From contig KK211275.1 of assembly GCA_000621425.1 (NCBI GenBank), positions 62,001 to 126,000 of the forward strand: a DNA stretch of 64,000 nt. Direction: 5' to 3'. Position numbers and translations under genes: made by a program. The notes under the pieces were generated by a model. The model worked only from the letters and a program-made list of their open reading frames with translations, ran no database searches and had not been told where the DNA came from. Position 1 is the stretch's first letter; every line of letters begins with the position of its first letter. This DNA comes from Lachnospiraceae bacterium AB2028. Its GTDB lineage: Bacteria; Bacillota; Clostridia; Lachnospirales; Lachnospiraceae. Positions 33,421-37,236 of the stretch are shown in pieces.

Positions 33421-35289
33421 ATGCCGATTTTAGATAAGATAAAAAAAGAAAATGATATAAAGAAGATCTCACCGGAGGACTATGAAAAGCTTGCGGCAGA
33501 GATAAGGTCATTTCTTATTGAACATATCAGTAATACAGGAGGTCATCTTGCATCCAACCTGGGGGCAGTGGAGCTTACCATGGCACTGCACCTGTCTGTT
33601 GACTTGCCGAAGGATAAGATAGTGTGGGATGTGGGACACCAGTCATATACCCATAAGCTCCTTACAGGCAGACGCGAAGGCTTTGATAACCTAAGGAAGT
33701 ATGGCGGAATGAGCGGATTCCCGAAGCGGAAGGAAAGCGACTGCGATGCTTTTAATACGGGACACTCATCTACCTCTATTTCTGCGGGATTGGGATTAGT
33801 GGCAGCTCGTGAACTGAATGGTGACGATTATACGGTTATATCTGTAATCGGTGATGGCTCCATGACGGGTGGAATGGCTTATGAAGGCCTTAACAATGCT
33901 TCAAACGAGCGCCTTAAGAAGAATTTTATTATCATTCTGAATGATAACAATATGTCTATAGCTGAGAACGTCGGTGGCATGTCCAACTATCTGACAAAGG
34001 TAAGGACCAGCTCCAATTACCTTGATCTGAAGGATAATGTGTACTACAAGCTTATGGATGCGAAAAGGTATGGCGCCGTAAGGTCTATCCGTACAGCAAA
34101 AAGCACCCTGAAGAACCTATTTGTGAAGAACATGCTTTTTGAGGATATGGGCATCACGTATCTGGGACCGGTGGACGGCCATGATGTGGACGCAATGGTC
34201 CGTCTGATAGAAGTAGCCAAGAAAGTCAGGGGAGCTGTAATTGTCCATGTAATCACTGAGAAGGGCAAGGGCTACCAGCCGGCTGAAAAGCATCCGTCAA
34301 GATTTCATGGTGCTGAACCTTTTGACATCGAGACCGGAATCCCTAAAAAGGTAAAGGAAAAGCCCGGTTATACTGATGTATTTTCTACGGTGATGTGCAA
34401 GATGGGACAGAAACGGGACGACGTGGTAGCCATCACTGCGGCCATGCCGGACGGCACGGGGCTTAAGCGTTTTCATAATATGTACCCTAACAGGTTCTTT
34501 GATGTGGGCATAGCGGAGGAGCATGCTGTGACATTTGCAGCTGCGCTTTCAACTGGAGGAAAAAAGCCTGTAGTTGCGATATACTCATCCTTCCTGCAGA
34601 GGGCATATGACCAGATACTGCATGATGTCTGTATACAGGATCTGCCTGTTACCTTTGCGGTAGACAGGGCAGGACTGGTAGGAAGCGATGGTGAGACCCA
34701 TCATGGGGCATTTGACCTGGCGTACCTTTCTACCGTTCCGAATATGACAGTCATGGCGCCCAAGAATAAATGGGAGCTTTCAGATATGCTTTATTTCTCG
34801 GTGGATTTCGGGCATCCCATAGCTTTTCGTTATCCAAGGGGAGAGGCCTATGATGGGCTTAGGGAATTCAGGGCCCCCATAGAGCTTGGCAAATGTGAAG
34901 TCATCTATGAAGAAGAGGAAATATGCCTTTTAGCAGTAGGCTCAATGGTTAAGACTGCTGTAGAGGTCAGGAATAAACTTTTAGAGAGCGGGCATAAGGC
35001 AAGCCTTGTCAATGTGAGGTTTGTAAAGCCCATAGATCCGGAGCTTGTGAATATAGCAAATAAAGGGCATAAGCTTATTGTCACGCTTGAAGAGAACGCG
35101 CTTTGCGGAGGCTTCGGTGAAAGGTTCGGATATCTGTATGACAGCAAAACGGATATTGGGGACAGAAAGCCGGTTATCAATATTGCCCTTCCTGATGCGT
35201 ATGTTTCCCATGGCGATGTGCCTTCACTGCAGAAGGAATGCGGGATAGATGCGGACTCTGTTTATGAGAAAATAGTGGAGGCCCTATGA
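33421..35289 (+). CDS. dxs: 1-deoxy-D-xylulose-5-phosphate synthase
   Basis: Dxs is the thiamine-diphosphate enzyme that joins pyruvate and glyceraldehyde 3-phosphate in the first step of the MEP isoprenoid pathway. The 622-residue protein shows HPSRFHG, the thiamine-diphosphate motif GDGSMTGGMAYEGLNN, DVGHQSYTHKLLTGR, GIAEEHAVTFAA and VDRAGLVGSDGETHHG. The start is ATG 33421 after AGGAA. The last bases overlap the start of tlyA (ATGA), so the two are translationally coupled. Confidence 0.97.
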   Translation: MPILDKIKKENDIKKISPEDYEKLAAEIRSFLIEHISNTGGHLASNLGAVELTMALHLSVDLPKDKIVWDVGHQSYTHKLLTGRREGFDNLRKYGGMSGFPKRKESDCDAFNTGHSSTSISAGLGLVAARELNGDDYTVISVIGDGSMTGGMAYEGLNNASNERLKKNFIIILNDNNMSIAENVGGMSNYLTKVRTSSNYLDLKDNVYYKLMDAKRYGAVRSIRTAKSTLKNLFVKNMLFEDMGITYLGPVDGHDVDAMVRLIEVAKKVRGAVIVHVITEKGKGYQPAEKHPSRFHGAEPFDIETGIPKKVKEKPGYTDVFSTVMCKMGQKRDDVVAITAAMPDGTGLKRFHNMYPNRFFDVGIAEEHAVTFAAALSTGGKKPVVAIYSSFLQRAYDQILHDVCIQDLPVTFAVDRAGLVGSDGETHHGAFDLAYLSTVPNMTVMAPKNKWELSDMLYFSVDFGHPIAFRYPRGEAYDGLREFRAPIELGKCEVIYEEEEICLLAVGSMVKTAVEVRNKLLESGHKASLVNVRFVKPIDPELVNIANKGHKLIVTLEENALCGGFGERFGYLYDSKTDIGDRKPVINIALPDAYVSHGDVPSLQKECGIDADSVYEKIVEAL

Positions 35290-36086
35290 AAGAAAGACTG
35301 GATGTTCTTCTTGTAAAAAACGGGCTTGCACCCTCGAGGGAAAAGGCGAAGATAATGATCATGGAAGGCAATGTCTTTGTGGCAGGGCAGCGCGAGGACA
35401 AGGCCGGCAGTACCTTCCCTGAGGATGCTGAGATAGAGGTAAGGGGCAGTAGCTTAAAGTACGTGAGCCGAGGTGGGCTTAAGCTGGAAAAGGCCCTTGC
35501 ATCATTTCCGATTGATTTGAATGATTGTATATGCATGGATATAGGCGCATCCACAGGCGGTTTTACCGACTGTATGCTGCAGAACGGTGCGTCAAAGGTC
35601 TATGCCATAGATGTGGGATACGGGCAGCTGGCATGGAAACTTCGTTCTGATGAACGGGTGGTCTGCATGGAGAAGACCAATTTCCGCTATGTTACGGATG
35701 AGCAGATAAAGGAGCCGGTGGATTTCGCATCCGTGGATGTTTCCTTTATCTCTCTTTCAAAGATCCTTCCGGTGGCATACCCGCTTCTGAAGGAAGACGG
35801 TGAGATGGCCTGCCTTATTAAACCGCAGTTTGAGGCCGGCCGTGAGAAGGTCGGTAAAAAGGGTGTGGTGCGGGATCCGAAGGTACATGAGGAAGTCATT
35901 AATAATGTCTTCGGTTTCGCAGCAGATGCAGGTTTCGCTGTGTGCGGTCTGGAATACTCGCCGGTGAGGGGACCGGAAGGGAATATAGAGTATTTGATGT
36001 ACCTGCGGAAGAATGCGGGTGAGAATGGTGGCTTTGACAAGGATATGATTAGCGCTATAGTCAGCAGGGCACATGAGAGCTTATAA
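35286..36086 (+). CDS. tlyA: TlyA-family S4/FtsJ rRNA methyltransferase (hemolysin A family)
   Basis: The protein has an N-terminal S4 RNA-binding domain (about 1-60, RLDVLLVKNGLAPSREKAK) and an FtsJ-type methyltransferase domain (about 80-250) with MDIGASTGGFTDCMLQNGA as the SAM loop. TlyA in mycobacteria 2'-O-methylates 16S and 23S rRNA; members in Clostridia are assigned by similarity only. Length 266. The start overlaps the dxs stop. After it comes a 304-bp gene-free stretch holding a repeat element, then nadK, which normally follows more closely. Confidence 0.93.
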   Translation: MKERLDVLLVKNGLAPSREKAKIMIMEGNVFVAGQREDKAGSTFPEDAEIEVRGSSLKYVSRGGLKLEKALASFPIDLNDCICMDIGASTGGFTDCMLQNGASKVYAIDVGYGQLAWKLRSDERVVCMEKTNFRYVTDEQIKEPVDFASVDVSFISLSKILPVAYPLLKEDGEMACLIKPQFEAGREKVGKKGVVRDPKVHEEVINNVFGFAADAGFAVCGLEYSPVRGPEGNIEYLMYLRKNAGENGGFDKDMISAIVSRAHESL

Positions 36087-36107
36087 TAATTCAGTGACAA
36101 ATGATGC

Positions 36108-36308
36108 GTTCTTTGCCACATCTGTATGCCGCAATAACACGAGGTTCTAACCGACGAGTCGGTTAGAACTCGCTACCTTCGTTTTGCTGCGTCCTATTCG
36201 GACTGTGCTTTGGCTCCTAATAAAGCGGGGCGCGTCGCACCGCCGACGGACTTGCAAAACTTCAGTCGCTTGCTACCGTTTTGCCTAGCATACAGACGGG
36301 CAAAGAAC
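36108..36308. repeat. 201-bp non-coding element with imperfect terminal inverted repeats (MITE-like or structured RNA)
   Basis: This fills the 304-bp gap between tlyA and nadK. The ends are inverted repeats of 22 and 21 bp: 36108-36129 reads GTTCTTTGCC, three bases, TCTGTATGC, and 36288-36308 is its reverse complement with two bases in the middle. Inside are a perfect 12-bp palindrome, GTTCTAACCGAC (36144-36155) and GTCGGTTAGAAC (36158-36169), and GTTTTGC/GCAAAAC segments near 36180, 36254 and 36278 that can pair. A GCTACC-TTTTGC module occurs twice. I see no plausible ORF, no transposase and no obvious target-site duplication. Either strand's RNA could fold into a branched structure closed by the end repeats. 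The element is richer in CG-containing words than the genes around it. Confidence 0.75.
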
Positions 36309-36390
36309 TTACACTGTGATGAATTTTGAAGACTAACACACTGCATAGTTTCAGCTGTCGTTGGGTGACGTACCAGATATGAGGTGAACT

Positions 36391-37236
36391 GTGAAGAATA
36401 TTTGTATACTGTCCAACAGCATAAAGGATGAGAATTTAGAGCTGGGCAAGAAGATCCGCGGGGATATTGCAAGGCTGGCAGGAGAGGCCGGCATAGAAGG
36501 CATCAATACGCCATTATTAGATCTTTGCGATGATGATGATATCGATACTGAGGGGATAGAGGCTATCATAGTGATCGGAGGCGATGGATCGGTTCTGTCG
36601 GCTGCGAAGCGCACCATAGGGAGCGGCGTGCCTATCATAGGCTTTAATCTGGGGGCTGTGGGCTTCCTTGCGGAGGTTGAGCCTGCGGATATGGAGAATG
36701 CTCTTAAGAGGCTGCTTGAGGATGATATAAAGATTGAAGAACGCATGATGCTGCAGGGGTCAGTATACAGGGAAGGGAAAATTGTGGAGAGCGGTATTGC
36801 CCTTAATGACGTGGTGATATCCAGGCGAGGGGATATGATGTTGTCAGGATACAGCATAAGCGTAAACGGATCATATCTTAGTGACTTCCTGGCTGACGGT
36901 ATCATAATCAGTACCCCTACAGGCTCGACTGCATATAATCTTTCTGCCGGAGGTGCCATAGTAAAGCCTGATGCAAGGCTCATACAGATGACTCCTGTGG
37001 CGGCACATCTTTTAAATAACAGAAGCGTCATTTTTTCCGGAGATGACGAGGTAGCTGTTTCCATACTGCCGAAAGGGCGGCATCCGGTGGCAACCGGTGT
37101 CAGCTTCGACGGCAATCAGCATGTGGTCCTGCAGGAAGGGGACATGGTCAAGGTGACCGCTTCCGGGCAGGTGACACGTATCATTCGTCTTTCTGACGAC
37201 GGATTCCTGCAGATACTTCACAAGAAGATGGTTTGA
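36391..37236 (+). CDS. nadK: NAD kinase
   Basis: NadK phosphorylates NAD to NADP. The 281-residue protein has the catalytic GGDGS motif (G63-G64-D65-G66-S67), GFNLGAVGFLAEVEP and DGIIISTPTGSTAYNLSAGG, all diagnostic. The start is GTG 36391 with GAGGTG at 36381-36386, a short spacing. An upstream promoter is not obvious, so expression may depend on read-through across the repeat element. argR, often found between nadK and recN, is absent. Confidence 0.95.
   Translation: MKNICILSNSIKDENLELGKKIRGDIARLAGEAGIEGINTPLLDLCDDDDIDTEGIEAIIVIGGDGSVLSAAKRTIGSGVPIIGFNLGAVGFLAEVEPADMENALKRLLEDDIKIEERMMLQGSVYREGKIVESGIALNDVVISRRGDMMLSGYSISVNGSYLSDFLADGIIISTPTGSTAYNLSAGGAIVKPDARLIQMTPVAAHLLNNRSVIFSGDDEVAVSILPKGRHPVATGVSFDGNQHVVLQEGDMVKVTASGQVTRIIRLSDDGFLQILHKKMV

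Follow-up and report, generated by a model that had tools for sequence, protein, structure and literature searches.

Bacterial MITEs, such as Correia/NEMIS, RUP, ERIC/RU-1 and YPAL/RU-2, are small, non-coding, intergenic and multi-copy elements that carry terminal inverted repeats and can fold back on themselves (PMC2229807, PMC10969869). REPINs and REP doublets, which are associated with RAYT, are likewise non-autonomous and consist of palindromic extragenic DNA in which one strand folds (PMC3116915). Template switching has been documented to generate multi-base compensatory changes at hairpins and to homogenise the two arms (PMC8794818, PMC8604942), and the hairpins maintained in this way change on both arms together without wobble intermediates (PMC8794818). 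The element described here resembles each of these systems in part. It lies between the housekeeping genes tlyA and nadK in Lachnospiraceae bacterium AB2028, within a window of 64,000 nucleotides (the whole stretch of DNA analysed; contig KK211275.1, positions 62,001 to 126,000), and we consider it probable that it belongs to a MITE-like fold-back family of ~210–230 bp, as yet undescribed, that constitutes non-autonomous mobile DNA in Lachnospiraceae and whose arms pair at the DNA level.

The element between tlyA and nadK

The initial annotation recognised an inverted-repeat element at 36108–36308, lodged between tlyA and nadK and devoid of a plausible ORF. The tlyA stop at 36086 and the nadK start at 36391 do leave a gap of 304 nt, and the element has no coding capacity. 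Its end repeats are present at the positions described, with perfect matches of 10 bp (36108–36117/36299–36308) and 9 bp (36121–36129/36288–36296), as are the 12-bp palindrome with its 2-nt centre (36144–36155/36158–36169) and the GTTTTGC/GCAAAAC segments (36181–36187, 36254–36260, and 36278–36284). The imperfect palindrome as a whole covers 36102–36315, slightly past both ends originally given. Its folding energy is −89.1, compared with −64.7 ± 4.5 in dinucleotide shuffles (z = −5.4), and 0 of 200 shuffles were as low. The features of the locus are as follows.

35286–36086, + strand: tlyA, upstream host gene
36094–36101: candidate left target-site duplicate GTGACAAA, 6/8 identical to GTGATGAA at the right end; decayed, and not significant in the window's clade
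36102–36138, + strand: left arm of terminal stem P1 (TGATGCGTTCTTTGCC..TCTGTATGC..CGCAATAAC; inverted repeats I2/I3), the arms of which co-vary between copies
36144–36169, + strand: P2, an optional 12-bp hairpin that some copies lack and that has both arms altered in a sister species' orthologous copy
36169–36181, + strand: conserved basal motif CTCGCTACCTTCG, 5′ side, defined from alignments
36181–36194, + strand: 5′ strand of P3, GTTTTGC-TGC-GTCC, partner at 36248–36260
36198–36208, + strand: 5′ strand of P4, TCGGACTGTGC, partner at 36237–36246
36212–36233, + strand: conserved apical motif GGCTCCTAATAAAGCGGGGCGC (clade consensus GGCTCCTAATRRACCGGGTCGC; other genera GGCTCCTATAGAAGCGTGGTCGC)
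36237–36246, + strand: 3′ strand of P4, GCACCGCCGA
36248–36260, + strand: 3′ strand of P3, GGAC-TT-GCAAAAC
36260–36277, + strand: conserved basal motif CTTCAGTCGCTTGCTACC, 3′ side, in which CTTGCTACC repeats 36169–36177
36278–36315, + strand: right arm of terminal stem P1 (GTTTTGCCTAGCATACAGACGGGCAAAGAACTTACACT)
36316–36323: candidate right target-site duplicate GTGATGAA, decayed
36391–37236, + strand: nadK, downstream host gene

A role for the element as a terminator was considered and rejected, the + strand having no terminator-like site. A promoter-like sequence, TTGACA-16-TATAGT (11/12), is found at 36034–36061 within the 3′-end of tlyA and could serve nadK.

The three-part fold of the element is conserved. 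All full copies possess a long terminal stem P1, an optional P2, stems P3 and P4, and a conserved hairpin tip, together with the basal motifs ACCTTC(G) and (C)TTCAGTCG or CTCAGTCG. The TGC/TT-type internal loop of P3 is seen in most copies. The tip GGCTCCTA...GGTCGC can be recognised clearly in most genera, genome G175 having another sequence in its place. Genome G406 contains at least three subfamilies that have different stems and share the exact tip GGCTCCTATAGAAGCGTGGTCGC. The conserved tip and basal motifs probably form the binding site of a shared trans-acting factor. Four G406 copies (L130, L133, L134, and L180) carry another palindrome (GGTGCTAAACGAACGTCCACTGGACGTTC..) in place of the core hairpin, as if the interior were exchangeable. 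A first whole-element MAFFT alignment misplaced P1 and P2, and the analyses therefore relied only on alignments of the core and on arm alignments made copy by copy.

Dispersal of the family and its transposition footprint

The supposition that the element is repeated was borne out by a BLASTN search of the host genome, which located it in four places (the window copy and three partial copies). BLASTN also detected copies in three other genomes of the genus (G005, G020, and G031), so that 4 of the 35 genus genomes are carriers. Copies in the carrier clade adjoin unrelated genes: the L002 copy has an ORF on either side, judged by eye to be cytidylate kinase and IspH, and the L010 copy sits upstream of a HisC-like ORF. 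Covariance-model searches, which had been proposed at the outset, found relatives in five other Lachnospiraceae genera with the core model R1 (397 genomes), and the broader model R2 added two more genomes, one of them (G215) weakly. The family total is at least six other Lachnospiraceae genera besides that of the window, and the family is scattered over several gut and rumen Lachnospiraceae genomes, the carrier contigs with known names being unclassified Lachnospiraceae MAGs. A class-wide covariance-model search with strict filters yielded no copies outside Lachnospiraceae; absence in the many-genome searches is weak evidence because they score few candidates per genome. Searches of plasmids, phages and viral contigs returned no element copies, and literature searches returned no description of the family.

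The arrangement of copies varies among carriers. The copy-rich genome G406 holds ~24 copies in 2.5 Mb. A four-copy tandem array with a 212-bp period is found in G326 (L095:4780–5573), where it adjoins the apparent end of a 23S rRNA gene. G175 contains a two-module composite, with the modules in opposite orientation inside a larger element that has its own ends. In the window's genome, a second repeat family (TTTACACCGTCAGG..CTATACGGTG and GCATTTCCGAGA..) adjoins two of the partial copies (L003:1580–1700 and L004:1390–1480). A Clostridiales-1 RNA (RF01699, 133 bits) was observed near an element copy in G192, on the minus strand (L041:1148–1314).

Empty sites were found in relatives, in keeping with the earlier statement that tlyA and nadK normally adjoin. 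nadK was matched in 34 genus genomes, and 30 loci were inspected for the tlyA–nadK gap. In the 25 relatives that lack the element this gap measures −4 to 47 nt (one of these loci, L085, lies at a contig end), and in the four carriers 154–305 nt; one further relative has an N-filled gap of 178 nt, and another locus has no visible tlyA. The carriers form a single sub-clade, with nadK sequences 91–93% identical to that of the window and all others at ≤63%. Of the four orthologous copies, one has lost ~90 bp between CGTTTTGC direct repeats and another its right half, which shows that the core is not required at this location. Outside P2, the intergenic stretch 36090–36390 is 97–98% identical between G000 and G031 and the flanking coding sequence ~85%, even though two of the four copies are damaged; this high conservation may reflect either recombination or constraint.

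Full copies in G406 have the ends GTTACAGTTC...GAACTGTAAC and are flanked by 8-bp target duplications. The flanks belonging to one copy match at 5.1 of 8 positions versus 2.0 for other pairs, the match is eight positions wide (permutation p < 5e-5), and two duplications are perfect (TCCGCATT and ACTGCCTG). All 18 copies examined in this genome are intergenic, small overlapping ORFs aside. The duplications are significant only in G406; those in the window's clade are decayed and suggestive, and do not reach significance. An 8-bp target duplication is the footprint of a DDE-type transposase. We infer that such an enzyme, supplied in trans, would recognise the ends (GTTACAGTTC..GAACTGTAAC in G406; ..GTTC..GAAC.. 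in the window copy) and paste the element into intergenic DNA, thereby generating the duplication. A terminal-inverted-repeat search of G406 found no autonomous partner with the same ends. Single ends in G406 were considered as a potential partner and proved to be truncated, degraded element copies. An IS256/Mutator transposase was also rejected as the partner, the family being absent from G000, G031, and G406.

Several characteristics of a MITE are found in this family, namely small size, lack of coding capacity, multiple copies, terminal inverted repeats, empty sites, and a duplication of fixed length (8 bp in G406). Fold-back DNA with DNA-level pairing, conserved foot motifs and tip, and tandem and composite arrangements would also be expected if a Y1 (HUH) transposase mobilised single-stranded hairpins, as in REPIN/REP-like elements. 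Such elements make no target duplication, whereas G406 has duplications of 8 bp, which do not fit IS200/IS605-type chemistry, and the element, at ~210–230 bp, is far from a 20–40-bp REP or a short doublet. We regard a REPIN/REP-like origin as very unlikely.

Base pairing at the DNA or the RNA level

Compensatory changes commonly count as proof that an RNA is functional. The initial annotation had named a single-copy sequence, or homologues without compensatory base changes, as evidence against both a mobile repeat and a structured RNA; relatives are multi-copy, and compensatory changes in them are abundant. When 10 close copies were aligned without reference to structure, 97.9% of cells paired and 7 of 29 pairs had changed on both sides (0 of 500 shuffles), and the P3 columns 24–27/109–113 were compensated in all four pairs. 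Among 35 copies from several genera, in an alignment fitted to the model and biased in its favour, with many closely related copies within a genome, 94.3% of cells pair and 25 of 29 pairs have changed on both sides. Cells changed on both sides number 229 in this alignment versus 67 in shuffles, and sliding the partners by 1–3 columns leaves 14–27, which destroys the signal.

Compensatory base pairs alone do not distinguish RNA from folded DNA. A repeated structured non-coding RNA, in which selection keeps a folded transcript and the copies are RNA genes or cis-regulators, would explain the strong covariation across several genera, the conserved tip and internal loop, and the conservation of the intergenic stretch relative to its coding flanks (97–98% vs. 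~85%, G000 vs. G031). A functional RNA tolerates one-sided changes to G-U and not those to A-C. The element core contains 10 G-U and 17 A-C among 973 cells, whereas the 6S RNA of the same genus, used as a control, contains 45 and 4 among 441. The P1 arms have 35 G-U and 44 A-C, and copies within G406 have 52 G-T and 47 A-C. A structure predicted afresh from the same alignment gave 17 G-U and 7 A-C of 639, still far below 6S. Wobble preference is thus inconsistent, and neither strand shows a steady excess of G-U over A-C. Compensation is strictly Watson-Crick and lacks a 6S-like G-U excess, which places the maintenance of pairing at the DNA level.

Other observations also weigh against the RNA reading. 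The orientation of the element relative to co-directional genes in G406 is unbiased (6:7), Rfam at permissive thresholds gave nothing credible at the window copy or the distant copies, core-less or core-swapped copies are common, and the distribution is patchy. Taken with the wobble counts, these make a structured RNA improbable. The annotation had offered a mobile element or a structured RNA as alternatives: the former stands on the multiple copies, the empty sites, the 8-bp duplications in G406, and the non-coding sequence, while the latter is disfavoured by the missing G-U excess, in contrast to 6S, and by the occurrence of both orientations.

Target duplications serve as a built-in neutral clock for the arms. 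Copies with clear duplications show 9 arm mismatches in 220 positions, compared with 16 diverged positions of 88 in the duplicates (p = 1.3e-4), and 15 cells across all aligned copies carry an identical change on both arms. Comparison of G000 with G031 at their orthologous site gives 16 differences across 36090–36330, of which 10 fall in the palindrome P2, mostly as changes matched on both arms. Gene conversion from another copy could instead explain these P2 changes, and is conceivable because L011 has a similar hairpin. Under the MITE-like reading, an element that becomes single-stranded during replication or transposition may fold into a hairpin in which one arm serves as the template for correcting its partner, and/or the arms may be kept complementary because movement needs the folded strand.

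A variant of the same explanation holds that the arms are functionless and that their co-variation is a by-product of template switching at the old palindromes of an extinct transposon. Template switching is documented for multi-base compensatory changes and for arm homogenisation (PMC8794818, PMC8604942), and many copies are deletion derivatives. Against this variant, genera with entirely rewritten stems still share the internal loop, tip and basal motifs, and we view the variant as possible, though rather unlikely.

The same conserved parts sit uneasily with the MITE-like explanation itself. The unpaired TGC/TT internal loop persists across genera, and arm correction alone should erase it, while a near-invariant tip amid different stems suggests a specific function beyond the needs of a plain MITE. 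As the loop is retained and the tip is near-invariant, a folded or double-stranded core would also be recognised by something. The hairpin module could be a portable single-stranded signal, elements with different stems sharing tip and foot motifs because one putative enzyme reads the folded strand and yet produces 8-bp duplications; we consider this doubtful.

Comparison with known elements

The family adds an undescribed mobile element to rumen and gut Lachnospiraceae, and its recognition would help to keep copies from being annotated as RNA genes. It provides a case of mobile DNA in which compensation is abundant and wobble pairs are lacking, with 6S RNA for control and a neutral clock supplied by the duplications, and a comparison of G-U with A-C can therefore separate DNA-level from RNA-level pairing.

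Although the element shares its general features with Correia/NEMIS, RUP, ERIC/RU-1, and YPAL/RU-2 (PMC2229807, PMC10969869), it differs from them in its 8-bp duplication (G406), in arms that change in step, and in a nested conserved hairpin module that is common to elements with different ends in several genera; its parent insertion sequence was not found in the G406 end search or among IS256 in three carriers. Unlike REPINs and REP doublets (PMC3116915), it is several REP lengths long and has target duplications. Hairpins maintained by template switching have been described for RNA genes (PMC8794818), whereas here the same behaviour is seen in a mobile element, whose target duplications offer a neutral yardstick.
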